Both the position numbers and the translations under genes were made by a program. This document shows, piece after piece, positions 36,200 through 51,603 of a DNA stretch of 64,000 nucleotides. The DNA is taken from NCBI RefSeq assembly GCF_900176115.1, contig NZ_FWWR01000009.1, forward strand, positions 620,001 to 684,000, in the 5' to 3' direction. Numbering within the stretch: the first letter of the stretch is position 1; every line of letters begins with the position of its first letter. The DNA comes from Peptoniphilus asaccharolyticus DSM 20463 (lineage in GTDB: Bacteria > Bacillota > Clostridia > Tissierellales > Peptoniphilaceae). The notes beneath the pieces are model-generated. The model saw only the letters and a program-made list of their open reading frames with translations. It was not told the origin of the DNA and did no database searches.

Positions 36200-36894
36200 A
36201 AGTCACTTCCTATTAAAGCCTCAGCTAAAATCAAATCCTCCGGAGTAGTTATCTTTATATTTCCATAGCCATTCCAGACTAATTTGATTTTCTTACCAGT
36301 TTTTTCTACCAATGAGCAATCATCTGTTCCATAGTATCCTTCTTGATACGCTTGATTATATGCATTCATTAGCACATCTTTTAAAAATACCTGTGGAGTT
36401 TGAACTGCCCACAATTCATTCCTATTTGGAGTATAATCCACTGTCTTTCCATTTTTAGAAATCTTTATAGTATCTTTCACAGTATTTGCAAGTGTAGCGG
36501 CTCCCGTTTCAAAAGTAGCCTCTATAACTTCATCTATCTTCGATACCTCTACAAGTGGCCTCGCCCCATCATGAGTCAAGACCACCTTTGTTTTTTCAGG
36601 AATGCTCAAAAGTCCATTGTAAATTGAGTCCTGTCTTTCAGCACCGCCATAAACTATATTGTAAGGTATATTTATTGTTAAATTCTCCAAGATATCATTT
36701 AAATAATTTAAATCAGAATCTTTTATGATAATAGTCAAATGGTCAATATATTTTGACGCAAGTATTTTTTTCAAAGTATGAGATAGTATCTTATCTCCAC
36801 TTATTTCTAAAAACTGCTTATTTAATTCAGTTTTCATTCTTCTACCCATTCCAGCTGCTGCAACCATCGCGCTTACATACTGCCCATTTATCAT
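36196..36894 (-). CDS. ispD: MEP cytidylyltransferase
   Basis: IspD activates methylerythritol phosphate with CTP in the MEP isoprenoid pathway. It has 232 residues. The N-terminal nucleotide loop [19 protein letters not shown] (with the catalytic Arg and Lys), [19 protein letters not shown] near 105 and [18 protein letters not shown] near 160 are standard. It overlaps the PBP gene by 1 nt. Isoprenoid precursors are needed for the undecaprenyl carrier used by the adjacent cell-wall genes, which fits the gene order. Confidence 0.97.
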
Positions 36895-38330
36895 CAGTCC
36901 AACACTCCTAGTGAATAGTTTATTATATCTCCCGCCAAAGGAGCTGCTATCTCTCCACCAAATTTTTCAACATCTTGTATTATTACAGCAACAGCTACTT
37001 GAGGATCTTTTGCAGGTGCATATCCAACAAACCATGCATTATACTTATCAGCATCTTTAGATATCTGAGCTGTACCAGTCTTTCCAGCAACTTGAGCTCT
37101 TCTTATCCTAGCAGTCTTACCAGAACCATTTTTAACTACATTTACCATCATCTTTCCTATTTGAGATGCAACTTCAGGTGAAACTGCTTCAGAAAGAACC
37201 TTCGGCTCTCTAGTGTATATATTTGATCCATCTGGTGATTGTACACTGCTAACAAGATATGGAGCCATCATCTTACCTTCATTACCTATAGCTGAAGCAA
37301 CCATACACATTTCAAGTGGTGTGGTTAATATATCTGCTTGACCTATTCCGGCACTTGCCAAGGCATGTTGGTCCCAAGACGAAGCTTTGAAAGAAGATGT
37401 TGATAGATAAGTTGTCTTTGTATTTAAATCAAAATCAACTTGTTTATTCATCATAAATCTTTCAGCCACTTCAACAAATTTCTCTTTTCCAACTCCAACT
37501 ACTTTATTTGCAAAATAAGTATTCACAGAGTAAGTAAATGCTTTGTTTAAGTCTATATTCCCATATTCTTTTCCGCCTGCATTTTTTATTGCACGGCCTA
37601 AGATTTCTTCTTCTCCTGTATCTTTATACTTTTGGTCTATTCCAGATTCTATTATAGCTGCAGCAGATATTATTTTAAATACAGAACCGGGAGCATATCC
37701 ACCTTGAATAGCATTGTTGAAAAATGCCCCATTATTTTGTTCAACTATTGCGCTATAATCAGAATCTATATTTTGTATATTAAAGTCCGGATAAGACGCC
37801 ATACCAAGTATCTCTCCAGTCTTTGGATTCATAACTACTACTGCACCTTTTTCTCCACTCTCAGCTAATTTATCTCTTATATACTGTTGTATCTTTGTGC
37901 TTGTTGTAAGAGTTAAATTATTTCCAACATCAGAATCTATATCTTTGTTGAAGAAAGCCCTTATCGACCTAAGTATATTAGAACCCTTAGTTCCCAAAAG
38001 TTCTTCGCTATATGAGGCCTCTAATCCAGAACTGCCCTTAGTCCTACTAGAATATCCTACAATATGCGCATAAGCTCTTGGATGAGGATAGACTCTTGTA
38101 TATTTATATTTTTCACCTTCAGTTTGAGCCAAAACCTCTCCATTCCTATCTACTATAGTTCCTCTCTTAAAAGCCGCAACTTTTATAGCATCACGTCTAT
38201 TGGCAGGATGGTTTACTATTTCTTTGGCCTCAAATATTGTAAAATAACTCAAATAAAATATCAAACCTAAGAACATTATAATTAATCCTATTAGGACAAC
38301 TAACATTCTCCTATTTTCTTTTATATTCAT
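36894..38330 (-). CDS. Penicillin-binding protein (class B transpeptidase, FtsI/PbpA type)
   Basis: A 478-residue monofunctional transpeptidase that cross-links peptidoglycan. An N-terminal membrane anchor (MLVVLIGLIIMFLGLIFYL) precedes a short dimerisation region (KRGTIVDRNGEVLA, GLEASYSEELLGTKG) and the catalytic domain with SxxK in APGSVFKI (S216/K219), SVN in FTYSVNTYF near 268, and KTGTAQ near 418. No PASTA domains. It is shorter than typical FtsI or MrdA. It pairs with the RodA/FtsW gene directly upstream, as in pbpA-rodA loci of actinobacteria and clostridia. Confidence 0.95.
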   Translation of the reverse strand: MNIKENRRMLVVLIGLIIMFLGLIFYLSYFTIFEAKEIVNHPANRRDAIKVAAFKRGTIVDRNGEVLAQTEGEKYKYTRVYPHPRAYAHIVGYSSRTKGSSGLEASYSEELLGTKGSNILRSIRAFFNKDIDSDVGNNLTLTTSTKIQQYIRDKLAESGEKGAVVVMNPKTGEILGMASYPDFNIQNIDSDYSAIVEQNNGAFFNNAIQGGYAPGSVFKIISAAAIIESGIDQKYKDTGEEEILGRAIKNAGGKEYGNIDLNKAFTYSVNTYFANKVVGVGKEKFVEVAERFMMNKQVDFDLNTKTTYLSTSSFKASSWDQHALASAGIGQADILTTPLEMCMVASAIGNEGKMMAPYLVSSVQSPDGSNIYTREPKVLSEAVSPEVASQIGKMMVNVVKNGSGKTARIRRAQVAGKTGTAQISKDADKYNAWFVGYAPAKDPQVAVAVIIQDVEKFGGEIAAPLAGDIINYSLGVLD

Positions 38331-38332
38331 CT

Positions 38333-39580
38333 CTATCCCTCATATTTATAAGACATATCCTCACTTGTAACTTGTAGCACTCCAAGAGCTATGAAACTTG
38401 AAATCATAGATGAACCACCATAAGACACAAAAGGAAGTGTCAAACCTGTCATTGGAATCAATTTTATAACTCCTCCAATATTTAAGAAGCATTGAACAGC
38501 AAATAAAATTCCTATCCCTATGGCAAGTATTCTATAAAATTTATACTCTTGTCTTATACTTATCTTCACAGCTCTATAAGCCAATAGTAAAAACAGCATT
38601 ATTATACCTATTCCAGCAAATATTCCCATCTCTTCACATATTACAGGGAAGATGAAATCTGAAGTCCCAACAGGAACTAACTTAGGATGTCCAAGTCCTA
38701 TTCCCGTTCCAAAAAATCCACCTTCTGCAATGGCAAATAGAGATTGTACTATTTGCGCTGAACTCTTATATATAGTCTCAGGATTCCACGGATCCAACCA
38801 AATTCCAATTCTCACTCTTACGTGCCTAAACAAAAAGTACCCTGCCACTCCACCTATAACTACCAACAGAAGATTTAATAAAATCATCTTTCTATCTTCT
38901 TCATAGATAAACTGTATTCCTGTGAATATTGACAAAAATATTACCGCTGTCCCCAAGTCCTTTTGAATAAACAATAAACCTATTAATAGGTATACAGTTC
39001 CCATTAACAAAATAGATTTATACTTAAACTTCTTTGGAATTTTATATTGATACTCTGTATAGTATGAAGCTATTAAGAAAACTAATACTATCTTTGTAAG
39101 TTCTGTAGGCTGTAATAAAACACTTTCGCTTAGCTTTATCCAGTTCTTAGAACCACCTCTTTCAACTCCAAACAACAGAGTTATTAAAAACAACATAATT
39201 GAAACTGCAACATAAAAATATGTCCAGTTTTCTATTTTTCTAAGCGCTCTCATAACAAAGTATGTTATATAGAAAATCAATATTCCAACTAAAGACCATA
39301 CCAACTGTTTAAGTCCTAAGTCGGGATTTAATCTATAAATAGTTAAAATACCAATAGTTAAAAGCATGGAAACAATGAGGAAAATATAATTGTCCCCAGT
39401 TGAAATCCTACCTAATATGAAATTTGAAATATAAATTACTGAAATCAATCCAAAAAATAATATTACTATATATTTGTCTACGTGCTGATTGTTAAAAAAG
39501 AAAAGTAATAATACTGCTAAAATTTCAAATACTAAGAGTAGATTTCTTGGCTTATCAGATCTAAAAACTTTAGTAATCAT
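38333..39580 (-). CDS. SEDS-family peptidoglycan glycosyltransferase (RodA/FtsW)
   Basis: A 415-residue polytopic protein with about ten membrane helices that polymerises lipid II. SEDS landmarks: LLFGVERGGSKNWIKL (about 146-161), QPTELTKIVLVFLIASYY (catalytic region), FIQKDLGTAVIFLSIF, and SDFIFPVICEEMGIFAGIGI with the conserved Glu pair near 310. The C-terminal TGLTLPFVSYGGSSMISSF is typical. Together with the PBP gene 2 nt downstream it forms a cognate polymerase/transpeptidase pair. RodA or FtsW cannot be decided from sequence alone. Confidence 0.95.
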   Translation of the reverse strand: MITKVFRSDKPRNLLLVFEILAVLLLFFFNNQHVDKYIVILFFGLISVIYISNFILGRISTGDNYIFLIVSMLLTIGILTIYRLNPDLGLKQLVWSLVGILIFYITYFVMRALRKIENWTYFYVAVSIMLFLITLLFGVERGGSKNWIKLSESVLLQPTELTKIVLVFLIASYYTEYQYKIPKKFKYKSILLMGTVYLLIGLLFIQKDLGTAVIFLSIFTGIQFIYEEDRKMILLNLLLVVIGGVAGYFLFRHVRVRIGIWLDPWNPETIYKSSAQIVQSLFAIAEGGFFGTGIGLGHPKLVPVGTSDFIFPVICEEMGIFAGIGIIMLFLLLAYRAVKISIRQEYKFYRILAIGIGILFAVQCFLNIGGVIKLIPMTGLTLPFVSYGGSSMISSFIALGVLQVTSEDMSYKYEG

Positions 39581-39583
39581 AAT

Positions 39584-40021
39584 CTACCCCCTGTCGTCAA
39601 CGAATAAAAGTTGGATGAATCCCACACCAATCTTATCTCCGTTTCTAAGTTCTATAATATCATGAACCTCTTCTCCATTTAAAAAAGTCCCATTTGCAGA
39701 ATTTAAATCTTCTAAGAAATATACTCCATCTTCTTCTCTTATTTCAATATGTTCCTTTGAAACAAATTTATCTTTTATAGTAATATCACATTTTGAAGAT
39801 CTACCTATTATGGTAACCCCTTTTAGAACGTAGAATTCGTCCATTTTAAAATCCAAAGAATCCAATCTGTTTACAACCTTTAAATAAGCTGCATCCATAT
39901 AAGAACCCTTCATATCCATTTTTTTTATGTCCATGTAAATAAGTCTAATAATACTCAATAAGAATAAATAAATTATGACTATAAATACATACCTTAAGCC
40001 TTGCGAGATTATTTCAAACAT
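39584..40021 (-). CDS. Membrane-anchored FHA-domain protein
   Basis: A 145-residue protein. An N-terminal membrane helix (LRYVFIVIIYLFLLSIIRLI) is followed by a cytoplasmic FHA domain of about 90 residues that reads phosphothreonine: TIIGRSSKCDITIKDKFVSK holds the GRS and SxxH region, then EHIEI, and LEDLNSANGTFLNG. FHA proteins are typical partners of PASTA kinases; prkC lies at 49.6-51.6 kb. As first gene of the RodA/PBP2 operon it is likely to link kinase signalling to cell-wall synthesis, as in actinobacterial fhaB-rodA-pbpA loci. Confidence 0.92.
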   Translation of the reverse strand: MFEIISQGLRYVFIVIIYLFLLSIIRLIYMDIKKMDMKGSYMDAAYLKVVNRLDSLDFKMDEFYVLKGVTIIGRSSKCDITIKDKFVSKEHIEIREEDGVYFLEDLNSANGTFLNGEEVHDIIELRNGDKIGVGFIQLLFVDDRG

Positions 40022-40049
40022 TATGCACCTCTATAATTTTCTAATAGTT

Positions 40050-40058
40050 ATAATATCA
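40050..40058 (-). promoter_or_regulatory. Extended -10 promoter of the FHA-rodA-rho operon
   Basis: TGATATTAT on the minus strand, about 30 bp upstream of the ATG; no clear -35. Confidence 0.45.
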
Positions 40059-40121
40059 TAAATAGAAAAACTTTAAAACTATAACAATCTTAATTAAAAT
40101 CAAGCTTTTATCAAATAAAAA

Positions 40122-40130
40122 TGTTAAAAT
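40122..40130 (+). promoter_or_regulatory. Extended -10 promoter of recX
   Basis: TGTTAAAAT at 40122-40130, 15 bp before the ATG, so the leader would be very short. It is divergent from the FHA operon promoter. Confidence 0.4.
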
Positions 40131-40145
40131 TTAATAGGTGATAAA

Positions 40146-40766
40146 ATGATTATTGAAAAAATTGTATTCCTCCCAAAATCAAAAAACTATACTGTATTTT
40201 TTAGTGATGGTTCTGGAACAGAAATCATTGAAGATACATTAGTCAAATTTAATTTATATAAGGGAATGGAAATAGAACCAGACACTATTTCAAATATAAA
40301 ATATGAAAATCAAAAGTTTGAAGCTGCTAAGTCAGTATTTAGATATATTCAAAATAAAAAAACTGTAAAAGAAGTAAAAGACTATCTGTCCAAAAAAGGT
40401 TACGATGAAGATGTTGTCGAATTGACTGCAGACTATTTAGTTGAAAAAGGATATATTGACGATAGAAAATATGTTTCTGCTTTTGTAAATGATAAATTAA
40501 AAATAAATAAATACGGTCGAAATAAAATTAAAAATCAACTTATTGTTCACGGAATTGATAAAGACTTAGCTGAGAGTGCAGTGTATAATTTAGATGAAAA
40601 TATAGAATATGAAAATTTAAAATCACACGCAGAGAAAAAGTTTAAAACATTAAAAAAAGATATGAACACAAAATCTAAATTAATAAATCATTTGATATAC
40701 AAAGGATACCAATATGATATGATAAAAAATGTTTTAAAAGAATTTGATTTTGGCTATGACGAATAA
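40146..40766 (+). CDS. recX: RecX regulator of RecA
   Basis: RecX restrains RecA filament extension. It has 206 residues. An N-terminal leader domain (IVFLPKSKNYTVFFSDGSG) is followed by three helical repeats: FRYIQNKKTVKEVKDYLSKK (R1), DYLVEKGYIDDRKYVSAFVN (R2, the best-conserved part) and NHLIYKGYQYDMIKNVLKEF (R3). Shine-Dalgarno AGGTGA. It overlaps the next gene by 11 nt. Confidence 0.93.
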   Translation: MIIEKIVFLPKSKNYTVFFSDGSGTEIIEDTLVKFNLYKGMEIEPDTISNIKYENQKFEAAKSVFRYIQNKKTVKEVKDYLSKKGYDEDVVELTADYLVEKGYIDDRKYVSAFVNDKLKINKYGRNKIKNQLIVHGIDKDLAESAVYNLDENIEYENLKSHAEKKFKTLKKDMNTKSKLINHLIYKGYQYDMIKNVLKEFDFGYDE

Positions 40767-41031
40767 AAAATACTACGTATATCTTTTAAAGTGCAATGAT
40801 AACTCTCTCTATTGCGGATATACAGTTGATTTGCAAAATAGAGTGTCTGCACATAACAACAAAACCGGCGCTAAATATACCCGTTCTCGCACTCCTGTTG
40901 AACTCGTATATTACGAGACATTTTCAAATAAGAGTGATGCTTTAAAAAGAGAGTGTTCAATAAAAAAATTAACTCGAGATAAAAAACTGCTTTTAATAAA
41001 AAGCTTTGAAGAACAAATAAAAAACTCCTAA
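40756..41031 (+). CDS. GIY-YIG nuclease-domain protein (YhbQ/YazA family)
   Basis: A 91-residue single GIY-YIG domain: KYYVYLLKCNDNSLYCGYT is the GIY-YIG equivalent (YVYLL...YCGYT), followed by RVSAHNNKTGAKYTRSRTP with the catalytic-type Arg and His, VELVYYETFSNKSDALKREC with the conserved Glu, and KKLTRDKKLLLI. The start at ATG 40756 is chosen because upstream in-frame TTG codons lie inside recX. UvrC-like nuclease activity is inferred for the family; physiological substrates are poorly known. A terminator overlaps its stop codon. Confidence 0.93.
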   Translation: MTNKKYYVYLLKCNDNSLYCGYTVDLQNRVSAHNNKTGAKYTRSRTPVELVYYETFSNKSDALKRECSIKKLTRDKKLLLIKSFEEQIKNS

Positions 41032-41057
41032 ACAGCTTTTGCTAATTTAGGAGTTTT
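41021..41057. terminator. Bidirectional terminator between convergent operons
   Basis: AAAACTCCTA (41021-41030) and TAGGAGTTTT (41048-41057) are perfect 10-bp arms. It ends both the recX operon and the cdaA/two-component operon. Confidence 0.85.
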
Positions 41058-41065
41058 ATTTGAAT

Positions 41066-41371
41066 TTATTTCCCACCTTGTATTATTCCAAATATAAGTG
41101 CAACTAAAAGAGATATTACACCACTAGAACAACCTATTAAAAATACTGCTAAAGCATCTACATTTTCTGGATTGAACAAATCACTTATAACTGAAAATAA
41201 TACAAATATTCCTATTGTGATTAATACAATACCAGGCAAATACTTAGCAAATTTAAGTCTCTTAGCAACTATACTCAATACTATTGTAACTGCTATAGCA
41301 ATTATTATCCCATAAATTGAAAGTAGTATAAATTCGGTATTACCTCCTACGGCTTCCATAACTTTAGACAT
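41066..41371 (-). CDS. Small three-helix membrane protein
   Basis: A 101-residue protein with three hydrophobic helices: FILLSIYGIIIAIAVTIVLS, KYLPGIVLITIGIFVLFSVI and FLIGCSSGVISLLVALIFGI. The second and third are joined by a short acidic loop (DLFNPENVDAL). Ribosome site GAGGTG. It is the last gene of the cdaA/two-component operon, 9 nt after the lipoprotein gene. I do not recognise the family. Confidence 0.75.
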   Translation of the reverse strand: MSKVMEAVGGNTEFILLSIYGIIIAIAVTIVLSIVAKRLKFAKYLPGIVLITIGIFVLFSVISDLFNPENVDALAVFLIGCSSGVISLLVALIFGIIQGGK

Positions 41372-41380
41372 ATTACACCT

Positions 41381-42751
41381 CTAATTCGTGTTTAATTTTT
41401 CTTTAATATTAATTGAGTTACTACCTACAAATCTCTCAATTTGAACAATTTCTGAACTTTGCGGTATTTCTATTGAATATATTTTCTTCGAACCCAATGC
41501 TGCATCAACTATATTATAAATGTTTAAGCTGTTATTTTCTATAGTCACTATAAATCTATTATTTGATGACATAACTGCATCTTTCAAATCCGGCAAATAT
41601 GTCTTTATATTTTCAAAAGGCATATTTAATTCAGCAGTATTTTCCAAGATTCTATTTATATCAATCCCTAAGTCAAAAAAAACATCTTCTTTTGAAGCAT
41701 CTCTGTATGTCATCAATCCAAAAACTTCAAACCTCCCATTTTTTCTCCTTATTCCAAAATTGGAATCATTTATATAGCCTTCTTCTGCAGATTTTAAAGC
41801 TTGTTTTTTAAATATTTTATCCCCATCATCAATCAACTTAGATAGAGGAATTCTCCTATCTTTATCAATTTCATTTGTGTATTTAAAAGTTAGACTTTTC
41901 CTATCGTCTTCATAATTCTTCTTTAAGCTAATATAATCTTCTGATACATACATTATCTCTGAATTTTCTGAATCTTTAACTTCTTCTGTCTTTTTAGAAT
42001 CTCCAGTTTCATTGATCAATGTTACATACTTATTTTCTTCATCTATAGATATAATTCCCTTTTCACCGATAATTTTTAAACCTTCTACCTCTCCAACTGA
42101 TTCTAAATCGTTGTTATTGAACTTCAAATAGAAACTTCTATAGTTAAACCTATTTTCATCATCATACTTTAGTCCTATTAAGATTCCATTATCTTTAGAA
42201 TTGGCATCCAGTTTTTCTTTTAGATTTGTAAGTTTTGATTCCTCTCTGCTTTTAATATCTTGAAATTCTTCTTCACTTACATCTTCTGAAACTCTCGATA
42301 GTTGTAGAAAAACACCATCTAAATATATATAACATTCATTTTCTTCAACTTTTAGAATTTGATAGACTAAGTCTTTTGAATTATATAAATTTACAACAGT
42401 GAGTTTTTCCTTATCTATACCTAAGTCACTAGGTTCAATTTGGTATTTTCTCTCCAAAAATTTTTCAGTATTAACTACCTTTGATTTAATCGAAGGATTT
42501 TCAAAATAATATCCATCTATTATAAACCCATTGTTAGAAAAATATATATCCGAACCTATTTTATCTTTATAATTAAAATATTCCTTGTTATCTTTTATAA
42601 AAATAACTTTTGTAACTGTCCAACTCCCATTGATAGGCGTTTTATTTATCTTAGGAGCTGCTATATTTCTCATATTAATATTTACAAATGAACATCCTGT
42701 AAGTGCCATTATAATAAACATTAATCCTAAAACTCTAATTTTCTTCTTCAT
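41381..42751 (-). CDS. Lipoprotein of unknown function
   Basis: A 456-residue protein. It has a type II signal peptide (KKKIRVLGLMFIIMALTGC) with lipobox LTGC, so Cys 20 would be lipidated. The mature part is beta-rich and acidic with internal repeats of 'Y/F-x-K-x-N...I.I.D' sort, for example FNYRSFYLKFNNNDLESVGE and KYVTLINETGDSKK, which read like beta-propeller blades. It overlaps the histidine-kinase gene by 17 nt. Lipoproteins encoded directly after a sensor kinase often modulate that kinase; here that is inference. Family unknown. Confidence 0.8.
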   Translation of the reverse strand: MKKKIRVLGLMFIIMALTGCSFVNINMRNIAAPKINKTPINGSWTVTKVIFIKDNKEYFNYKDKIGSDIYFSNNGFIIDGYYFENPSIKSKVVNTEKFLERKYQIEPSDLGIDKEKLTVVNLYNSKDLVYQILKVEENECYIYLDGVFLQLSRVSEDVSEEEFQDIKSREESKLTNLKEKLDANSKDNGILIGLKYDDENRFNYRSFYLKFNNNDLESVGEVEGLKIIGEKGIISIDEENKYVTLINETGDSKKTEEVKDSENSEIMYVSEDYISLKKNYEDDRKSLTFKYTNEIDKDRRIPLSKLIDDGDKIFKKQALKSAEEGYINDSNFGIRRKNGRFEVFGLMTYRDASKEDVFFDLGIDINRILENTAELNMPFENIKTYLPDLKDAVMSSNNRFIVTIENNSLNIYNIVDAALGSKKIYSIEIPQSSEIVQIERFVGSNSINIKEKLNTN

Positions 42752-44153
42752 CTTTTTGTACCTTTACTATTGGTAGAGTTACTTTGACAGTTGTTCCTAT
42801 ATTCTTTTCAGAATATATATTTAACTCTCCTTGATGCAAATTAGCAATTTCGTCAGCTATAGAAAGTCCTATCCCACTATGGCTCTTTGAATGCTTTCCT
42901 TTATAAAATTTTTCTTTTACATGCTGAATTTCATCTTTATCTATTCCCTGTCCATTATCTGTTATAAGAATAACTATGCTGTCTTCCAAAACACTGGATG
43001 TGAATCTTACAAACCCATCAGTTGATGTAAATTTAATAGCATTGTCAAGCAAGTTTATAAGCAACTGTCTTATTCTATTTTCATCACCTATTAAAATTGC
43101 CTTTTCAGAATCTATGTTGGATTGAAATTCAATTTTGTTTAACTCGGCTCTTGGTCTCATTTGTTTTGCTATATCATTTAAAACATCCGTCAAATTTAGA
43201 GTATCTTTTTCAAGTTGAATTCTACCTGATATAAATCTTGAAAAATCTAACAGTTCTTCAACCATCTTAGAAAGTCTATCTGTTTCATTTTCTATTATAT
43301 TCAGTCCATCGTTTAAAAGGGTCTTTTCATCTTCTCTTGCACTCTTTAGCACTACTGCCCACCCTTTAATAGATGTTAAAGGTGTTCTAAGCTCATGTGA
43401 TATAGAAGATATGAAATCATTCTTAATCTGCTCTCTTTTTAAAATTTCTTCTGCCATTGAATTCAACGTCTTGCCAAGCTGACCAAATTCATCCGGAGTG
43501 TTTAATTCAGACCTAATTTTGTATTGTCCATCAGCCATTTTCGCCGCAACAGATATCAACTCTCCCATAGGCTTTACTATAGAATTTGCCAAAATCAAAC
43601 TCATTACAGTTGTTATAGCTATTACAACCACGCCCAATCCAAGTATACCAAGAGATGTCTTTAATATTTCTTTGTTAGGTTCTTCTAAAGAGCTTATAAA
43701 TCTTAAATATCCTATATCCATACCAGCTGAATTGCGTAGTTTGCCGGTCAAAGCCATGACTTTATCATTAGTGTAGCTATTAGAGCCTATAAAAGTGGAC
43801 TTAACTCCATTTTCTGCAGACTTAACATCGTATGTAATGATTGTGTTTGTTGGCATAGCACCTATAGAGTCATAGATTACATACTTATCATTGTTCAAAA
43901 TTTGAACCTCTGAATTTGTATTCGCCCATAGCATTTCAGTATCTTCCAAGATTAAATCCTCTAAAGTTCTATCCGAATAAAATTTCTCAAAAGAATCTAT
44001 AGATAAATTTAATCTTGATGAAAGTTCATTTTCTATATTTGAATAGTAGAAATTTCTAAATCCAACTATCAAAAACAAACTTATGATAGCTACAGTAAGT
44101 ATGATAATAAACAGGAAATTTTTGACAAGCTTTTTTCCTATTGAATACTTCAA
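42735..44153 (-). CDS. Sensor histidine kinase (HAMP, HisKA, HATPase)
   Basis: A 472-residue membrane sensor. TM1 (FLFIIILTVAIISLFLIV, 13-30), an extracytoplasmic sensing region of about 135 residues, TM2 (LGILGLGVVVIAITTVMS, 168-185), HAMP (NSIVKPMGELISVAAKMADG, 190-209), HisKA with the phospho-acceptor H253 in SHELRTPLTSIKG, and HATPase with N box (LLINLLDNAIKFTS), G1 (ITDNGQGID) and G2 (HSGIGLSIADEI). It is encoded 1 nt after its response regulator, downstream of cdaA-cdaR. The signal is unknown; an envelope cue is plausible. Confidence 0.95.
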   Translation of the reverse strand: MKYSIGKKLVKNFLFIIILTVAIISLFLIVGFRNFYYSNIENELSSRLNLSIDSFEKFYSDRTLEDLILEDTEMLWANTNSEVQILNNDKYVIYDSIGAMPTNTIITYDVKSAENGVKSTFIGSNSYTNDKVMALTGKLRNSAGMDIGYLRFISSLEEPNKEILKTSLGILGLGVVVIAITTVMSLILANSIVKPMGELISVAAKMADGQYKIRSELNTPDEFGQLGKTLNSMAEEILKREQIKNDFISSISHELRTPLTSIKGWAVVLKSAREDEKTLLNDGLNIIENETDRLSKMVEELLDFSRFISGRIQLEKDTLNLTDVLNDIAKQMRPRAELNKIEFQSNIDSEKAILIGDENRIRQLLINLLDNAIKFTSTDGFVRFTSSVLEDSIVILITDNGQGIDKDEIQHVKEKFYKGKHSKSHSGIGLSIADEIANLHQGELNIYSEKNIGTTVKVTLPIVKVQKDEEEN

Positions 44154-44154
44154 C

Positions 44155-44838
44155 TTACACCCCTGACCATCTATACCCTACGCCCCAAACAGTTTCTATA
44201 TAAGTTGGTTTGGCTGCATTCTTTTCTATTTTAGAACGTAATCTACGTATATTTACATCGACAATTTTAGAATCGCCAATAAACTCTTCTCCCCATACCA
44301 TTCTCAAAATCTCATCTCTCTTAAGAGCTTTTCCAGGATTCTCCATAAAAATCTTCATTATTTGATATTCAGTAGGAGTTAGTACTAATTCAATATTATC
44401 TTTGTAGAATCTTCTTGAATAAGTATCTAATTTGAAAGGTCCTTCTATCATCATATTTTTTTCTGTATCTTCTATTTCTAAACGTCTTTCAAGAGATTTT
44501 ATTCTTAGAGTTAGCTCAGTTGGATTAAATGGCTTAGTCATGTAGTCGTCTGTTCCATATTGAAGTCCCATTATCTTATCATAATCTTCAGCTTTAGCTG
44601 TCAGCATTATAATCCCAAGATTTGGAAATTCTTCTCTAAGTGTTTGACAAACTTCAAAGCCATCTATCCCTGGAAGCATTACATCCAAAACAACTATTTC
44701 AGGTTTTACTTGTCTTGCTATGTCTATTCCATCTTCACCCGTTCCAGCTTCATAGACATCGTAAAATTCTCTTTCCAGATTTATCTTAACAAATTTTCTA
44801 ATTGACTCTTCATCTTCTACTAAAAGTATTTTTGTCAT
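44155..44838 (-). CDS. OmpR/PhoB-family response regulator
   Basis: A 227-residue DNA-binding regulator. Receiver domain with acidic pocket VEDE (8-10), phospho-acceptor D52 in VVLDVMLPG, Thr in IMLTAKAED and Lys in YMTKPFNPTEL. A C-terminal winged helix (residues about 130-227; LTPTEYQIMKIFMENPGKAL, VDVNIRRLRSKIE, and VWGVGYRW) follows. It lies 9 nt after cdaR and directly before its kinase. Its target genes are not identifiable here. Confidence 0.97.
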   Translation of the reverse strand: MTKILLVEDEESIRKFVKINLEREFYDVYEAGTGEDGIDIARQVKPEIVVLDVMLPGIDGFEVCQTLREEFPNLGIIMLTAKAEDYDKIMGLQYGTDDYMTKPFNPTELTLRIKSLERRLEIEDTEKNMMIEGPFKLDTYSRRFYKDNIELVLTPTEYQIMKIFMENPGKALKRDEILRMVWGEEFIGDSKIVDVNIRRLRSKIEKNAAKPTYIETVWGVGYRWSGV

Positions 44839-44847
44839 ATTATCTAC

Positions 44848-46062
44848 CTAAAAAATTCCCTTCTTCTTTATTTCCAACTTAACTACTTTAGGACTTATTT
44901 TTTCAACCTTAAATTCTTTTGGTACCTCTATCTTAGGTGCTATTTCATAAGTTCCAACTCCTAAATCTTTTAAATTCAAAATAACTTTTACATCTTTTTT
45001 ATTTAGTGTTAAATCTTCCAAAACATTCTTTTGTACAAATTCAACATTCAGATTATTTAATTCTGAAACTATTTCTTTATCGTCTAACCCCTCAAAAATT
45101 ATATCTTCTTTACTAAAATTAATAGCAGTTTTCTTAGGTGTTAAATCTTCTGAGGAAGCTACAATTTTTATATCTTTATCTACCAATGAGACTCCATCTG
45201 GTAAAACTAATCCCACTTCAACTCTATTTCCTATCAAGCTATTAACGTCCACAGGTTGAGTTGTAAGTTCAGTTATTCCATTTATTACAGCTGAATTTCC
45301 TCTAATCATTACAGAACTTGGTTCTATAGAGAATGCTTGAGTGTCCATTCCATCCGGTATTCTACCAATAATATTCAATCTTATTGGCACTGTCATAGTT
45401 TTTAGTACCGGCACTTCGATATCTATCGAACTCGGTGTTATTGTAAGATTATCAATTTCTTTTCCATCTTTATCATAGGCTATTATCTTACCTGTCTTAA
45501 CTTCACTCTTATACATTTCTGTAACATCTACTTCTGATATTATCTTTTCTATTGAATGTACAATGCTTGATGCACCTTTAACATCAACTTTTTCAGCCGG
45601 CTTTATATTTCCCAATACATATCCTTCAGCAAGTTGTCCCTTAGTGCTTATAACAGCTTCCATCTTTTCTTCTATAACTTCATCAATCTTTACAGTTATT
45701 CTTGATGGTTCTTTAGAAGCTACTCTAACTCCACTGTTGTTATCTATGCTTACCTTTATAGGAATGCTATTTTCCCCTTCTGAATATCCGGATAGATTAA
45801 TAGATGCTAAAATATTTTCTCTACTCATTCTTGCCATTTCAGAAGTCTTACCAGAAATAGATATATTAGTTTTTAAATTCATATTAGATACTACAGCTAA
45901 ATTATGTTCCTTAATTTCAGCTAAATTTTCAAAACGCACATCAACATCTTTATATGTTACCGTTCTTTCAGGGTCAACTTCACTTCTCACGTATGACCAT
46001 AAAAAGAGTGCAAATATAATTGATATGAATTTAAACATGGTGTTTTTACTCATTTTTCGCAT
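44848..46062 (-). CDS. cdaR: CdaR: YbbR-domain regulator of CdaA
   Basis: CdaR is an extracytoplasmic partner that modulates the c-di-AMP synthase CdaA. About 404 residues from ATG 46062, which follows GGTGGTG by 6 nt; the frame is open further upstream into cdaA but lacks a better start. One membrane helix (FKFISIIFALFLWSYVRS) leads to about four YbbR repeats, each with a pattern like SISGKTSEMARMSRENI, VDVKGASSIVHSIEKIISEV, VMIRGNSAVINGITEL and the last around VILNLKDLGVGTY. It overlaps cdaA by about 17 nt. Confidence 0.9.
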   Translation of the reverse strand: MRKMSKNTMFKFISIIFALFLWSYVRSEVDPERTVTYKDVDVRFENLAEIKEHNLAVVSNMNLKTNISISGKTSEMARMSRENILASINLSGYSEGENSIPIKVSIDNNSGVRVASKEPSRITVKIDEVIEEKMEAVISTKGQLAEGYVLGNIKPAEKVDVKGASSIVHSIEKIISEVDVTEMYKSEVKTGKIIAYDKDGKEIDNLTITPSSIDIEVPVLKTMTVPIRLNIIGRIPDGMDTQAFSIEPSSVMIRGNSAVINGITELTTQPVDVNSLIGNRVEVGLVLPDGVSLVDKDIKIVASSEDLTPKKTAINFSKEDIIFEGLDDKEIVSELNNLNVEFVQKNVLEDLTLNKKDVKVILNLKDLGVGTYEIAPKIEVPKEFKVEKISPKVVKLEIKKKGIF

Positions 46063-46876
46063 TTTTTTCACCACCAATTTTCCACTTAAATAAACTACTT
46101 TGATTTACTAGTGTTGGATTATAAATCTTATTAAGTATTGTCTCCAAAGTTTCTAAATCTAAGTATCTTGAAATTTTTCCTTTTTCAGCTACAGATATAG
46201 ATCCTGTTTCCTCACTTACCATTATGCTCAAACAATCTGATTTTTCACTTATTCCAATTCCGGCTCTATGTCTTGTTCCCAACTCTTTTGAAATATTATC
46301 TGCATCGCTAAGTGGTAAAAAACAAGAAGCTGCCACAATTCTATCTCCCTTTACTATAACGGCACCGTCGTGCAAAGGAGTGTTTGGAATAAAAATATTT
46401 ATTATCAATCCACTTGATACCAATCCATCAACTCTTGTTCCCGTTTCTACTATTTCATTTAATCCAGTTTGTCTTTCAACTATTATCAGCGCACCTATCT
46501 TTTGTCTAGCTAAAGAACCCACTGAATCACATATTTCCGTTACAGTACGCGGAACTCTTACAACATCTCTAGAATTTCTAAATGAACTAGAAGATCTTCC
46601 TATAAGTTCAAGTCCCTTTCTAAGTTCCGGCTGAAATACAACCAAAATGGCAACAATTCCCCAAGTCATTAATTTATCAAGTAGCCAATAAATGGTATAA
46701 AATTTTCCCCACTCACTCAATTTAGTTAAAATCAAAATTACTATTATACCTTTTGCTAATTGTTCCGCTCTAGTTCCTTGCCAAAGTTTAAGACAATTAT
46801 AAGTAAGTATTGCTATTATAAAGATATCTATCAGGTCTCTTATTCGTATATAATTAAAAATTTCTTGTATATTCAT
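46046..46876 (-). CDS. cdaA: Diadenylate cyclase CdaA (c-di-AMP synthase)
   Basis: CdaA makes c-di-AMP from two ATP and controls potassium, osmolyte and cell-wall homeostasis. It has 276 residues. Three N-terminal membrane helices fall within residues 14-80, followed by a DAC domain with the catalytic DGA (170-172, TPLHDGAVIVKGD) and RHR (202-204, GTRHRAGIG). It is flanked by a DUF5317 gene (1 nt) and cdaR (overlap). The usual third gene of this operon, glmM, is not here; a two-component system follows instead. Confidence 0.97.
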   Translation of the reverse strand: MNIQEIFNYIRIRDLIDIFIIAILTYNCLKLWQGTRAEQLAKGIIVILILTKLSEWGKFYTIYWLLDKLMTWGIVAILVVFQPELRKGLELIGRSSSSFRNSRDVVRVPRTVTEICDSVGSLARQKIGALIIVERQTGLNEIVETGTRVDGLVSSGLIINIFIPNTPLHDGAVIVKGDRIVAASCFLPLSDADNISKELGTRHRAGIGISEKSDCLSIMVSEETGSISVAEKGKISRYLDLETLETILNKIYNPTLVNQSSLFKWKIGGEKNAKNE

Positions 46877-47428
46877 CTATGTCTCCTGTTTAAAAACTAC
46901 TCCCGCCTGAATTATTATAGCTAAAAACAATCCAAATGCTATAACTATGTCTCCTACACTAATAATAGTTTTGTACGGTATTGGTAAATAAATTATATCC
47001 GATAGAAAATAAGCTTTAGGGTTTCCAAAAACTCCATGGCTTAAACTTCTAAAATTGAGTATAATTTCAGCCCTCTGTTGTGGAATTTTACTCAAATATT
47101 CATATTTAACCGGCATCTTACCATTTAAAATAATTGGAATAACATTCATTATAAATCCAGTGCCCATCAGAACAAGCCCCTTACTTTGAAAATTAAATAT
47201 TAATGTCATCCCCAAAATGGTTAAATACAAGATGTGAAAAAAGCTATAGTATTTAATAAACACCCATGTCAATTTTCCGAAATCATGAGTAGTTAATATA
47301 GTTAAGAGTACATCTATTCCCACACCTAAAAATAAAAGCCCAGCATATTTTATTTCCATCTTATTTAATTCAAGATTGCCAAATATTTTTGCAACTATTA
47401 CACCAAGTATAAGTGCTAAAAAAATCAT
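46877..47428 (-). CDS. DUF5317-like membrane protein
   Basis: A 183-residue protein with about five membrane helices (MIFLALILGVIVAKIFGNLE, KYAGLLFLGVGIDVLLTIL, YYSFFHILYLTILGMTLIF, LVLMGTGFIMNVIPIILNG, ISVGDIVIAFGLFLAIIIQ). NGKMPV in the middle and the FLSDIIYLPIPYKTIISVGD segment near the end are hallmarks of the DUF5317 family as I recall it. It lies 1 nt upstream of cdaA and starts that operon. Function unknown. Confidence 0.7.
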   Translation of the reverse strand: MIFLALILGVIVAKIFGNLELNKMEIKYAGLLFLGVGIDVLLTILTTHDFGKLTWVFIKYYSFFHILYLTILGMTLIFNFQSKGLVLMGTGFIMNVIPIILNGKMPVKYEYLSKIPQQRAEIILNFRSLSHGVFGNPKAYFLSDIIYLPIPYKTIISVGDIVIAFGLFLAIIIQAGVVFKQET

Positions 47429-47465
47429 TCCTATCTCCTATAATATCACAATTAGATCTATTTAT

Positions 47466-47505
47466 AAAAAAGGATTTATCAATCAATAGACCTGATGATA
47501 AATCC
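47466..47505 (-). terminator. Terminator after thiN
   Basis: On the minus strand GGATTTATC (47497-47505) and GATAAATCC (47472-47480) form a 9-bp stem, followed by six T's. It overlaps the last codons of the gene and marks the end of the priA-prkC-thiN operon. Confidence 0.75.
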
Positions 47506-48108
47506 TCTTCCCTCGTGTACTGTGATTTTTGCTGTGTCACCCTTAATTTCGTTACTGACACCTCTAATTTCACTTGTTGAAATTTTTAATTCATCAGCTT
47601 CATATTTCATTCCATCTGTAGAATAAACTATTTCTTTACTTATAGCCACTACACTGATGTAACCATGCCTATCTTTCTTAAAGAAATACTCTCCTTTTTC
47701 AACGTACTCTATTATATTATGGTTATCTACCATTTTCGCTCTAGTCTTTCCAAATAGCTTTTGCAATAAAAATATATTAGCAAGAGTGTGATCCATCCTA
47801 GTGCCTGAAGCTCCAAGTATTATTATTTCACTAAAGTTCATATCAAGTACAATATCTATTGCAGCCTCTGTGTCTGTAAAATTTTTAATTGGATTATAAA
47901 CTCTCTTTTCTATATTTTTTTCTTCAATAAATTTTTTTCCTTTTTCATCTATTGAATCAAAATCTCCAACTATTATGTTTGGCAAGATAGTAGAATTGTA
48001 AAAATTTTTAATTCCACCATCACAACATACTATATACGCATCTGTTGTGTACTCTTTTAATATTTCAGGATTTACTTTGCTCCCTCCTGAAACTACTACA
48101 CCTTTCAT
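47479..48108 (-). CDS. thiN: Thiamine pyrophosphokinase
   Basis: ThiN transfers pyrophosphate from ATP to thiamine. It has 209 residues. Family motifs: VVSGGSKVNPEIL, VCCDGGIKNFYNSTILPNII (acidic substrate loop), VGDFDSIDEKGKKFI, DFTDTEAAIDIVLD (NFTD), and LGASGTRMDHTLANIFLL (about 100-117); the C-terminal barrel ends EIRGVSNEIKGDTAKI. It overlaps rpe by 4 nt and ends the operon. Confidence 0.95.
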   Translation of the reverse strand: MKGVVVSGGSKVNPEILKEYTTDAYIVCCDGGIKNFYNSTILPNIIVGDFDSIDEKGKKFIEEKNIEKRVYNPIKNFTDTEAAIDIVLDMNFSEIIILGASGTRMDHTLANIFLLQKLFGKTRAKMVDNHNIIEYVEKGEYFFKKDRHGYISVVAISKEIVYSTDGMKYEADELKISTSEIRGVSNEIKGDTAKITVHEGRGFIIRSID

Positions 48109-48752
48109 TTTCCAATCCTTTTAAAATCTTCAATAGCTTTCATCGGATCTTCCACTCCAAAAACAGCTGAACCGGCAACTAATAGATTTGCTCCACTTTT
48201 ATAAACTCTCTCTGCATTATCTAACTTAACTCCCCCGTCAACTTCAAGAATACAGTTTGGATTTTCTCTATCGATTATCTCTCTAGCACATGCTATCTTG
48301 TCATAAACTTGCTCTATGAATTTTTGTCCCCCAAATCCAGGATTTACACTCATCAGTAAAAGTAAGTCTAAGTCTTTGATTGTATAATCTAAAATGGACA
48401 AACTCTCAGCTGGATTTATTGCTAGTCCAACTTTAACGCCTTTTTCTCTTATCAAGTTTAAAGTTCTATTTAAGTGCTTTGTAGCTGACGCGTGGACTGT
48501 TATTATATCTGCTCCTGCTTTTACAAAGTCCTCAATATATCTTTCAGGTTGCTCTATCATCAAATGCACATCAAACGGTATTTCTGTTAACTCTCTAAGT
48601 TGAGAAATTATAGCTAGCCCAAATGAAATATTTGGTACATACATTCCATCCATTACATCCACATGAACATAGTCTGCTCCAGCCTTGTTCATCATTTCAA
48701 ATTGTTCTCTTATTTTTGTAAAATCACATGATAGTATTGATGGTGAAATCAT
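48105..48752 (-). CDS. rpe: Ribulose-phosphate 3-epimerase
   Basis: Rpe interconverts ribulose 5-phosphate and xylulose 5-phosphate in the pentose phosphate pathway. It has 215 residues in a TIM barrel. Motifs: SPSILSCDFTKI (Ser and Asp), DYVHVDVMDGMYVPNISFG (metal ligands), MSVNPGFGGQKFIE and LEVDGGVKLDNA (Asp near 175), then VAGSAVFG. Start and stop overlap rsgA and thiN by 4 nt each. Confidence 0.97.
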   Translation of the reverse strand: MISPSILSCDFTKIREQFEMMNKAGADYVHVDVMDGMYVPNISFGLAIISQLRELTEIPFDVHLMIEQPERYIEDFVKAGADIITVHASATKHLNRTLNLIREKGVKVGLAINPAESLSILDYTIKDLDLLLLMSVNPGFGGQKFIEQVYDKIACAREIIDRENPNCILEVDGGVKLDNAERVYKSGANLLVAGSAVFGVEDPMKAIEDFKRIGK

Positions 48753-49603
48753 ACGCGCTCCTTTTCTTTTAACTCATTGTAAATTTGAACATAACTATTA
48801 TATCTTGATTGAGGAATTTCTCCCTCTTCCACTAATTTCTTTATTGCACACCCAGGTTCATTTATATGTCTGCAATCTTGGAATTTACAATTTTCTCTAT
48901 TCTTTTCAAGCTCTCTAAAATATTCTTTTAGTTCATCTGCTTTTATATCTAATTCAAAACTTGAAAATCCAGGAGTATCAAATACATAAGTATCGTCATC
49001 CCCAGAAATTATTTCAACGTGTCTCGTTGTATGTGTTCCTCTTTTTGTCTTTTCAGACACATCTCCTATTTGAACGTCTTTCTTTAATATGTGACTAATT
49101 ATAGTAGATTTGCCTGCTGCAGAAACTCCCGAAAGAGCAGTGGTTTTTCCCTTTAGATACTCTCTTAGTAAATCAACTGTAAAAGTGTATTTATAGGAAA
49201 TTAAAAAAGTTTTAAAACCTGCTTTTCTATATGTTTCAAATAAGTACTCTGCTTCTTTTTTATCTAAATCATATTTATTTATAGCTATTAAGATTTCAAC
49301 TTCATCTTCATAAGAAGCTATTATCTTATCTACTAAATTTAAATTATACATAGGGTCTTTAGTTGGAATAACTATCAACACTTGATCAACGTTTGCAACA
49401 GTAGGTCTTTTCAGTACATTTTTTCTAGGATATATATTTTCAATATATCCTAGATTGCTTTGCATTTTAAACTCTACAATATCTCCAACCAAAGGTTTTT
49501 TATCCTCATTTCTAAAAAGACCTCTGGCTCTTGTTTCATAAACTGTATCATCACTAATTACATAGTAAAACCCACCTGTTAATTTTATAATTTTACCCTT
49601 CAT
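48749..49603 (-). CDS. rsgA: RsgA: 30S-maturation circularly permuted GTPase
   Basis: RsgA checks 30S decoding-centre maturation. It has 284 residues: an OB fold (residues 1-65), the permuted GTPase with G4 (INKYDLDK) before G1 (ALSGVSAAGKSTII) and G3 (DTPGFSSFEL), and a C-terminal zinc domain (CKFQDCRHINEPGCA). The G1 reads G-V-S-A-A-G-K-S where most members have G-V-S-G-V-G-K-S; the Lys and Ser are kept. It lies 8 nt after prkC, a standard neighbour. Confidence 0.97.
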   Translation of the reverse strand: MKGKIIKLTGGFYYVISDDTVYETRARGLFRNEDKKPLVGDIVEFKMQSNLGYIENIYPRKNVLKRPTVANVDQVLIVIPTKDPMYNLNLVDKIIASYEDEVEILIAINKYDLDKKEAEYLFETYRKAGFKTFLISYKYTFTVDLLREYLKGKTTALSGVSAAGKSTIISHILKKDVQIGDVSEKTKRGTHTTRHVEIISGDDDTYVFDTPGFSSFELDIKADELKEYFRELEKNRENCKFQDCRHINEPGCAIKKLVEEGEIPQSRYNSYVQIYNELKEKERV

Positions 49604-49610
49604 ATATCAC

Positions 49611-51596
49611 CTATTCTAAAACAATGTCTTTTATTACTTTGCCATCAAGTATAACTTCAAATCTGTCACCTTTTTTAGCATAATCAATATTTTGGACAAA
49701 ATCTTCTTTTAGATTTTTAAAATCGGCAAGTACATATTGCTTGCCGTTTTTAGTATATCTTGTAATTGTTAAACTATGAGTTTCCCCATCATCAGGTACA
49801 TCTACATTTATATCTGAAGGAGCTGATGAATGTTCTTCTCTTGATTTCTTATCAGAGTTATCATTGTCATTGGAACTTTCTTCAGGCCCTTTACTGATAA
49901 GCAGTTCTATAACTGAACCTTGTTCAGCTTCTCCCTTAGGGTTATAATCTGAAACTTCACCAAAATCAACATTTGAAGAATTAACTTCTTTGATTTTAAC
50001 TTCAAATCCCAAACTCTTCAGAGTTATCTCTGCATCATCTACGCTCAAACCAGATATATTAGGAATTTTTATAACTTTCTTATCTTTACCTGAAGATATA
50101 TATAATTTTATTTTTGATCCAGCAGGTACATTTTCTCCATTTTCAGGTTCTTGTTGGAATATCTGACCTTCTTCATAGTCTGCAGATGGTAAATTCTTTA
50201 TATCACCAACCAAAAGACCTGATTGATCCAATAATAATTTTGCCTGTTCTAAAGTTTTTCCAACAAGATTTGGAGCAACAACTGTTTGTGGTTTCACATT
50301 TACCTTAACCACTACAGTACTTCCTTCTTTTATCTTCTCTCCCGCTATGGGATCTTGACTTAAAACTTGTCTATCTTCAATTTTTGAATCTTCACCTTGA
50401 TCTTCAACAGCTTCTATATCTATTACTAGCCCAAGAGCTTCTAATTCTTCTCTAGCTTGTTTATCACTCTTGCCTACCAATCCAGGCACTGTTACAATCT
50501 TTCCTTCTTGTGATGATTTAAATGCATTTGGTCCTATATATATAATTAAAAATACAAGCAACAAAGCACATAGTACACCTAACATTACAGGTAGTGATGA
50601 TTTTTCTTTCTTCTTATATTCTCTAGATTCAGATTTCTTTTCTCTAGGATAATTTTCAGTTGCTCTTCTTCTAACTACTTTTTTAGATGGCTCTGTATTT
50701 CTATTGGCGTATAGATTAGAAGTCCTTCCCGTTCTTGTAGTAGTTGAATACATATTAGGATTAGTTTTCCCAAGTTGTATATTTTTTATATCCTTCATCA
50801 ACTCTGAGACATCTGCATATCTATCGTCAGGGTCTTTTTGTGTCATTTTCAATACTATTGAATCAGTTTCTTTAGATATATCCGGCACCACTGTAGAAGG
50901 TATTGGCATATTACCTTGTACTTGCATAAGGGCAACTGACACAGGGTTGTCTGCATCAAAGGGCACTCTGCCAGTCAACATTTCAAACATAACTATTCCA
51001 AGTGAATATATATCTGATCTATGATCTACTTTAGAACCTCTTGCCTGTTCAGGAGAAAAATAGTGTACAGAACCCATTATGGCATTTGTAGCTGTCACTG
51101 TTGCATTATCAGCGACACGCGCTATACCAAAGTCAGTCACTTTAACTCTATAGTCTTTTGTGACCATTATATTCTGACTCTTTATATCTCTGTGAACTAT
51201 CCCCTTATTATGGGCTACTTTAAGAGCTTCTGTTATTTGAGCTAAATAATTAAGAGCTCTTTTTTCAGGTATTTTACCTTCATCTGCTATTAATTCTTTT
51301 AATGTCTTACCATCTATAAATTCCATTACTATATAGTGAACTTTTTCGCTATCAACTTCTTCAGTCCCAACATCATAAATACTTACAATATTAGGATGTG
51401 ATATGCTTGCAGCTGCTAAAGATTCTCTTTTAAATTTTCTAATGAAATTATTGTCATCGTTATATTGAGCTTTCAACACTTTTATAGCTACTATTCTATC
51501 TAGCTTGTGACAATGAGCTTTGTATACATCTCCCATTCCACCTGTGCCAATTTTCTCTAATATTTCGTATCTATTACCAAGTATTTTCCCTATCAT
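49611..51596 (-). CDS. prkC: PASTA Ser/Thr protein kinase (PrkC/Stk)
   Basis: A membrane kinase that senses muropeptides or lipid II and phosphorylates cell-wall and translation factors. It has 661 residues. The kinase domain covers about 10-270 with GTGGMGDVYK (P-loop), K39, HRDIKSQN (135-142) and DFG (155-157). A basic juxtamembrane region, TM (LPVMLGVLCALLLVFLIIYI) and three PASTA domains (starting VTVPGLVGKSDKQA, VVAPNLVGKTLEQA and IKIPNISGLSVDDA) follow. After them come a Ser/Asn/Asp-rich linker and about 50 extra beta-rich residues (SLTITRYTKNGKQYVLADF) not usual in short members. It is coupled to stp and rsgA. Confidence 0.97.
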   Translation of the reverse strand: MIGKILGNRYEILEKIGTGGMGDVYKAHCHKLDRIVAIKVLKAQYNDDNNFIRKFKRESLAAASISHPNIVSIYDVGTEEVDSEKVHYIVMEFIDGKTLKELIADEGKIPEKRALNYLAQITEALKVAHNKGIVHRDIKSQNIMVTKDYRVKVTDFGIARVADNATVTATNAIMGSVHYFSPEQARGSKVDHRSDIYSLGIVMFEMLTGRVPFDADNPVSVALMQVQGNMPIPSTVVPDISKETDSIVLKMTQKDPDDRYADVSELMKDIKNIQLGKTNPNMYSTTTRTGRTSNLYANRNTEPSKKVVRRRATENYPREKKSESREYKKKEKSSLPVMLGVLCALLLVFLIIYIGPNAFKSSQEGKIVTVPGLVGKSDKQAREELEALGLVIDIEAVEDQGEDSKIEDRQVLSQDPIAGEKIKEGSTVVVKVNVKPQTVVAPNLVGKTLEQAKLLLDQSGLLVGDIKNLPSADYEEGQIFQQEPENGENVPAGSKIKLYISSGKDKKVIKIPNISGLSVDDAEITLKSLGFEVKIKEVNSSNVDFGEVSDYNPKGEAEQGSVIELLISKGPEESSNDNDNSDKKSREEHSSAPSDINVDVPDDGETHSLTITRYTKNGKQYVLADFKNLKEDFVQNIDYAKKGDRFEVILDGKVIKDIVLE

Positions 51597-51603
51597 AAAG
51601 CAC

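Follow-up and report, generated by a model that had tools for sequence, protein, structure and literature searches.

The genes for CdaA, a membrane diadenylate cyclase that synthesizes cyclic di-adenosine monophosphate (c-di-AMP), and for its regulator CdaR are known from the cdaA-cdaR-glmM operon of Firmicutes. According to the available part of PMC8573169, it is unclear how CdaR controls the cyclase. Lipoproteins accompany some two-component systems (TCS), which comprise a response regulator (RR) and a sensor histidine kinase (HK). Modulation of WalK by WalA, a lipoprotein described as unique to Clostridioides difficile, is a proposal of its authors (PMC9210968), and LpqB is reported to modulate MtrB in the actinobacterial MtrAB-LpqB system (PMC13189361); both statements follow the available parts of these papers. 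Here we analyze a stretch of 64,000 nucleotides (nt) from the genome of Peptoniphilus asaccharolyticus DSM 20463 (contig NZ_FWWR01000009.1, positions 620,001 to 684,000), hereafter called the window. It contains a row of seven genes on the minus strand, from 47428 to 41066, in the order DUF5317-cdaA-cdaR-RR-HK-lipoprotein-small membrane protein. Among titles and abstract beginnings of mostly open-access literature on the context of cdaA and cdaR, on c-di-AMP in Peptoniphilus, and on this TCS, we found no description of such an arrangement.

Only 9 nt (44839..44847) separate cdaR from the RR gene in the window, and a comparison of loci shows that the guaB gene and the promoter present there in relatives are missing. 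We examined 48 loci of the family, 43 of which carry the RR gene. The RR gene directly follows cdaR in three of them, while 24 loci (19 distinct genomes) have the order cdaR-guaB-RR; among the remaining RR-bearing loci, four have cdaR at most four genes away and 12 have no cdaR within four genes. In the relatives, the gene that separates cdaR from RR is not glmM, as we had expected, but guaB (IMP dehydrogenase), called by Pfam in four loci (L003, L007, L008, and L012) and by BLAST in the others. Two of the 24 loci were kept despite split or uncalled genes, perhaps due to sequencing errors (cdaA and the lipoprotein gene in L072, cdaA in L092). A MATE gene on the opposite strand lies between the two units in L079 and L087.

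A promoter scan of the window is uninformative (70 sites compared with 66.1 in shuffles, i.e., no commoner than by chance), and a simple terminator scan overlooked a real terminator at the end of the block, listing no minus-strand terminator in 38000-50000. Therefore, we compared the gaps across species, leaving out five duplicates of one genome (L065, L066, L073, L075, and L080). The layout of most Peptoniphilus and Anaerosphaera loci that we read is cdaA-cdaR-guaB, a hairpin with a T run, a promoter of the sigma-A type, and then RR-HK-lipoprotein. The 19 distinct guaB-RR gaps represent 18 different sequences. The pattern TTGnnn-(16-18)-TATAAT occurs in 19 of 19, a hairpin with a T run in 17, and both together in 17. 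Dinucleotide shuffles of these gaps gave means per set of 0.24, 0.38, and 0.00, respectively. With a stricter hairpin rule (three G-C pairs) 16 of the 19 gaps are positive, and the gap of L008, negative by both hairpin rules, still folds (-19.8 kcal/mol, z -4.7). These signals indicate that the c-di-AMP block and the TCS block are probably separate transcription units in the relatives with guaB. In the window, in Peptoniphilus indolicus ATCC 29427 (L062), and in genome G104 (L002), guaB and the promoter are absent, cdaR and RR are spaced by 9, 11, and 3 nt, respectively, and no promoter site of the 4/6 + 5/6 kind is found within 400 nt 5' of RR. The TCS is thus probably co-transcribed with cdaA-cdaR, as far as gene spacing and promoter-like signals can tell.

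The direction of change was read from a joined tree of RR, HK, and CdaA that includes 30 loci and uses two loci from other families as the root. The adjacent loci form one clade of 23 rows (99/97), inside which the three fused loci are nested as a clade of their own (100/100). Their sister group (99/97) consists of three loci with guaB in between, one of which carries two additional genes. Adjacency and direct fusion require one change apiece. Because of the nesting and the outgroup, adjacency appears to precede fusion; counts alone would be insufficient for this. The genus of the window is represented here by three genomes (the window, L062, and G104), all fused; L062 and G522 agree in contig position and in match length. 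Since adjacency and fusion each need a single change on the tree, we regard it as likely that the operon arose by deletion as a fusion specific to this genus, after the family itself had formed. Gene order, distribution, the predicted hairpins and promoter sites of the relatives, and the single fusion event on the tree are findings at the level of sequence.

The genome retains a guaB gene about 440 kb away (L159 7083-8534, contig G000:C15), the first gene in a run of guaB-purE-purM and three more genes. It sits on a long branch (0.67), and its placement is unsure. Possibly this purine-run guaB is a second copy that replaced the one linked to cdaR; a likely cause of the loss is that the local guaB became dispensable through such a second copy.

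We propose the following history. Two transcription units would have fused: a c-di-AMP unit (DUF5317-cdaA-cdaR, once ending in guaB), and a three-component system consisting of an RR, an HK without a PAS domain, and a lipoprotein, together with a small membrane protein. The latter would belong to the C. difficile WalA-WalR-WalK type, with probable envelope sensing. A single event in an ancestor of Peptoniphilus and Anaerosphaera would have placed the units side by side, each unit having a promoter of its own. Later, in the P. indolicus lineage, guaB would have disappeared along with its terminator and the promoter of the TCS, so that RR-HK-lipoprotein would now probably depend on transcription through cdaA-cdaR. 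The HK would read the state of the envelope, tuned by the lipoprotein, and the RR would adjust cell-wall genes, its dose now being tied to that of CdaA-CdaR. Envelope sensing by the TCS of the operon is inferred and probable, and the action of the lipoprotein is plausible by analogy. Taken as a whole, this account, a fusion of two units by deletion with the proposed envelope-sensing working, has a good chance of being correct.

Outside the genus, the c-di-AMP module and the TCS module are each conserved independently. CdaA is present in 146 of 150 genomes of the order Tissierellales, and a single-sequence query matched the lipoprotein in 79 of 150. A lipoprotein profile also matches genomes missed by that query (e.g., G067, G076, and G088), and across the class it matches 51 of 391 genomes. 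We read 40 cdaA loci from the 146 matching genomes (20 of the own family and 20 of other families) and 20 lipoprotein loci. cdaR directly follows cdaA in 40 of 40 loci. The next gene is guaB in 12 of the 20 own-family cdaA loci. Two loci of the family, L017 and L018, have a confirmed glmM after cdaR; four candidates were tested among the 40. Phosphotransbutyrylase-like and butyrate-kinase-like genes lie at most four genes after cdaA in 19 of the 20 other-family loci (by Pfam in L022, by BLAST elsewhere). As a separate observation, a capA-like gene stands at most two genes before cdaA in 19 of these 20 loci (L022-L041). The second module, RR-HK-lipoprotein, is frequently joined by the small membrane protein. 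Its 5' neighbour is a polysaccharide deacetylase gene in many other families and an HD-domain gene in Aedoeadaptatus and some further groups. In genome G047 (L015/L160) RR-HK-lipoprotein is found near cdaA-cdaR with the reversed order of modules and with FHA-ftsW-pbpA and pepF between them. Apparently, the two modules approached each other separately in this case.

The original prediction, made from the sequence of the window, suggested a possible link of the TCS to c-di-AMP production and called for a survey of gene order across Tissierellia. The TCS genes are indeed placed for co-transcription with the cyclase gene, and the order recurs in all three genomes available for the genus; the link is not a general trait of Tissierellia, as direct fusion was seen in a single genus, and 19 relatives have guaB and a promoter between the blocks (a hairpin in 17). 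Across the order, just 11 of the 79 lipoprotein-positive genomes have the cdaA and lipoprotein genes at most 10 kb apart on the same contig, and all 11 are from the own family. For the remaining 68, the two genes are farther apart or on separate contigs, where a draft assembly hides the distance.

The RR (44155..44838, minus strand, 227 aa) is of the OmpR/PhoB type, with PF00072 (Response_reg) and PF00486 (Trans_reg_C). In a tree of 55 rows it belongs to a clade of 37 rows (100/99) together with the regulator of L194. The gene order of L194, lipoprotein-RR-HK-truA, matches walA-walR-walK-truA2 of C. difficile (PMC9210968, available part), and on this gene order we took L194 as the Clostridioides reference. 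WalR-like regulators, including one from the own genome, fall outside the clade. The HK (42735..44153, minus strand, 472 aa) has the layout transmembrane helix, sensor, transmembrane helix, HAMP, HisKA, and HATPase_c according to Pfam and NCBIfam scans and a structural model. In having HAMP, HisKA, and HATPase, with no PAS domain found by the Pfam scan, it agrees with a C. difficile-type WalK. As regards the extracellular Cache domain of that type, the model shows strands between residues 82 and 155, flanked by long helices; matches in the structure search are filled by kinase cores.

We considered whether this TCS is WalRK and rejected it on the profile scores and the tree: the RR reaches 190.2 bits against the YycF model (cut-off 340), and the HK 234 bits against HK_WalK (cut-off 725), its best NCBIfam match, mostly over the kinase core. 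Another pair of the same genome, L148 (G000:C15:940000-945500, 2047-4504), scores 306.9 bits for YycF and 467.4 bits for WalK and matches nearly the whole WalK profile, yet it is also below both curated cut-offs, which is a caveat for the rejection. The genome has 12 OmpR-type regulators, and the NCBIfam scan covered six of the 11 others. Because the L148 pair is nearer to canonical WalRK, the TCS of the operon is probably a second, envelope-type system of the genome, judging by sequence similarity. The existence of this pair apart from the TCS of the operon also means that canonical WalRK and the C. difficile-type system may be paralogues; a single genome shows the two side by side. An identification with MtrAB-LpqB was likewise rejected, as the RR has 205 bits for MtrA (cut-off 300) and the lipoprotein has no Pfam family above the cut-off. 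The LpqB/GerMN domains are a hallmark of LpqB lipoproteins.

The lipoprotein (41381..42751, minus strand, 456 aa) starts with the lipobox LTGC, whose Cys20 is invariant in 23 of 23 aligned rows. No Pfam family above the cut-off was found. The structural model (mean predicted local distance difference test score, pLDDT, 80.6) shows a beta domain at the N-terminus and a second part at 186-448. Structure-search matches of this part are largely beta-propellers, as judged from their titles, the best being 6nau (Z 7.8, root-mean-square deviation 3.9, 123 residues); a profile search of the lipoprotein against solved structures gave no match. Lipoproteins of 172-190 aa that consist of the N-terminal domain alone occur in Anaerosphaera, in genus g11, and in Aedoeadaptatus with its kin (L004, L005, L006, L065, L077, and L057-L059). 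Read by eye, the joined tree suggests that the putative propeller part was lost three times; the N-terminal domain is the portion retained across the loci read. Inspection by eye also revealed a lipobox-like start beside RR-HK in 16 of 20 Clostridia loci, mostly upstream and in L197, L198, and L201 downstream, and likewise in Bacillus (L099). The exceptions are L202 and L203, where no RR or HK was found, L196 without a lipobox, and L211, where the start was not seen. Among the lipoproteins of L194-L213 and L099, the eight that were scanned have FG-GAP-like, TPR, or no recognised repeats. Thus lipoprotein genes adjoin this type of TCS in many Clostridia, in contrast with WalA being called unique to C. 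difficile. By analogy with the described systems, it is plausible that the lipoprotein of the operon modulates the HK.

The order and tight spacing of the seven genes, as originally predicted, are borne out by seven minus-strand frames with gaps from -17 to +9 nt. In transcription order, the spacings are 0 nt, an overlap of at least 17 nt (cdaA/cdaR), 9 nt, 1 nt, an overlap of 17 nt, and 9 nt. The predicted departure from cdaA-cdaR-glmM is real as well: RR follows cdaR, and glmM lies on contig G000:C5. The block starts with a DUF5317 membrane protein (46877..47428, 183 aa; PF17248, 120.4 bits), for which a literature search returned nothing. DUF5317 is immediately 5' of cdaA in 13 of the 40 cdaA loci, all 13 among the 20 own-family loci. 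CdaA (46046..46876, 276 aa) passes the equivalog test for CdaA-type diadenylate cyclases (TIGR00159, 260.9 bits, cut-off 188.8). It aligns with the solved diadenylate cyclase 9g69 (203.9 bits) with DGA and RHR present; we take these to be the catalytic motifs. The gene of CdaR, a YbbR-domain regulator of CdaA (PF07949 in three stretches), extends over 44848..~46062; its start is not certain, and it overlaps cdaA. At the other end is a small membrane protein (41066..41371, 101 aa), whose gene comes behind that of the lipoprotein in most loci of the family; no Pfam family above the cut-off was found for it or for its P. indolicus copy. All these genes are on the minus strand. The whole order is retained in the window, L062, and G104. 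Since this is so despite the G104 lipoprotein being just 42% identical to that of the window, the order goes beyond chance.

A single terminator at the end had also been predicted and does exist: an intrinsic terminator formed by a hairpin and T run (~41021-41057, minus strand), common to the block and a convergent GIY-YIG gene (-17.9 kcal/mol, z -6.3, equalled by none of 200 shuffles). At the start, a promoter-like site with TTTATA, a 17-nt spacer, and the extended -10 TGATATTAT lies at 47440..47468 (minus strand), directly 5' of DUF5317, scoring 9/12 in the scan. The pattern TGnTA[TC][TA]AT, picked after inspection of the loci, occurs in 21 of 30 loci close to where DUF5317 starts, compared with a shuffle mean of 1.75.

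Several points weigh against our account. The rule for promoters and hairpins in the gaps was fixed after the gaps had been seen. Moreover, the gaps are kin by descent, and therefore the counts reflect conservation and not 19 independent events. The site 5' of DUF5317 implies a leader of few nt, and for this reason its use is unproven; the pattern is absent in G104. For a putative homology of the lipoprotein to WalA-like lipoproteins, hhalign gives 62-81% over 28-65 columns, and the best propeller match is modest (Z 7.8), which makes a propeller likely rather than proven. A shared transcript is by itself no proof of a regulatory tie between the kinase and c-di-AMP. According to the available parts of the sources, a Streptomyces mtrA mutant showed only a slight change in DisA (PMC13189361), and overexpression of WalR in C. 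difficile revealed no autoregulation of the wal operon (PMC9210968). Finally, a promoter-like site matching 10 of 12 positions is situated inside cdaR (45396-45368, minus strand), about 530 nt 5' of RR. An internal promoter at this site could leave the TCS independent of cdaA transcription. We think this unlikely, as the three fused genomes have no 4/6 + 5/6 site within 400 nt before RR, compared with 19 of 19 gaps of the relatives, and sites of the loose-scan kind are no commoner than in shuffles (70 vs 66.1).

Even less credible is that the TCS is simply the WalRK of the organism relocated beside cdaA. HK_WalK is the top NCBIfam match of its kinase core (234 bits), but this match is mainly to the core, the RR falls below the YycF cut-off (190.2 vs 340), and the L148 pair scores higher for both YycF (306.9) and WalK (467) and groups elsewhere in the tree, though itself under 340 and 725; we consider such a relocation extremely improbable. 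Two other explanations concern the meaning of the fusion and are compatible with its history. The fusion may be a by-product of gene loss: the local guaB, made redundant by the one in the purine run, would have been deleted with the terminator and the promoter, and the TCS would be kept by read-through, with no functional tie. The guaB about 440 kb off, heading a purine run on a long branch (0.67), agrees with this, as do the separate promoters in 19 relatives and the opposite-strand MATE gene between the units in L079 and L087. Such a neutral by-product is compatible with all the data. The retention of the fusion in three of three genomes despite the 42% identical lipoprotein is a weak counterargument, since a promoterless TCS would be hard to free again; we put the chances of the gene-loss explanation at about even. 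The alternative is a dedicated feedback circuit, in which the phosphorylated RR would act at a promoter 5' of DUF5317 and control both its own system and the c-di-AMP synthase. By position alone, the RR is inside the unit that the 47440-47468 site would drive, and the Streptomyces regulator MtrA binds the promoter of mtrAB-lpqB (PMC13189361, available part). This circuit nevertheless seems rather improbable given the lack of autoregulation of the wal operon upon WalR overexpression (PMC9210968, available part) and the presence of the DUF5317 extended -10 also in relatives that keep the TCS as a unit of its own. We are equally doubtful that the deletion in the P. indolicus lineage hard-wired the sensor to the cyclase, with one transcript for sensor, lipoprotein, cyclase, and CdaR, feedback of the RR on its own promoter, and the envelope state setting the c-di-AMP level. 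If that were true, the relatives with separate units would provide a natural before/after comparison.

The block lies in a genome of 2.23 Mb in 17 contigs. The nearest named relative found is P. indolicus ATCC 29427, with a 96% identical RR and 94% identity across the joined RR, HK, and CdaA columns. Upstream of the block, at 50 nt, is thiN, the end of stp-prkC-rsgA-rpe-thiN on the same strand (rsgA and rpe were named by eye, the other neighbours by Pfam). Downstream are convergent recX and GIY-YIG genes, followed by FHA, FtsW/RodA, and PBP genes. A region of about 15 kb (36894-52362) thus holds the PASTA kinase PrkC, a PP2C phosphatase, CdaA-CdaR, the TCS, and FHA-FtsW/RodA-PBP, on one strand except recX and GIY-YIG. 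A plausible PrkC partner in this region is the FHA protein. FHA and ftsW occur at most nine genes downstream of RR-HK-lipoprotein in at least five of 20 order loci and at least eight of 33 named family loci; these are lower bounds, as the loci end. An FMN riboswitch (8919-9033) and a ribosomal protein L21 leader (19559-19625), both on the minus strand, score above the Rfam gathering score elsewhere in the window. A c-di-AMP riboswitch was not found across the genome by a search that recovered controls in Bacillus subtilis and Corynebacterium glutamicum, and a search of plasmids gave no near DNA match. The genome encodes a GdpP-type protein.

With a natural fusion and relatives that have separate promoters, one can ask whether joint production of the sensor and the cyclase alters either output. 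Each of the known systems, compared here as far as the available parts of the sources go, shares some features with the operon. Like the cdaA-cdaR-glmM operon of Firmicutes (PMC8573169), it has cdaA and then cdaR, whereas RR follows here and guaB in the relatives, the own glmM being on another contig (G000:C5). Canonical WalRK (YycFG) likewise combines an OmpR-type RR with a HAMP kinase and has a presumed envelope role; in contrast, the HK of the operon has no PAS match, both proteins are under the curated cut-offs, and another pair of the genome is closer. Actinobacterial MtrAB-LpqB (PMC13189361) has the same RR-HK-lipoprotein order and a lipoprotein reported to modulate the kinase, but the RR of the operon is under the MtrA cut-off and its lipoprotein has no Pfam family above the cut-off. 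The C. difficile walA-walR-walK-truA2 operon (PMC9210968) is alike in the RR clade, in an HK without a PAS match, and in an adjacent lipoprotein carrying a predicted beta-propeller. It differs in that the lipoprotein gene is before RR there and after HK here, where the system is linked to cdaA-cdaR.

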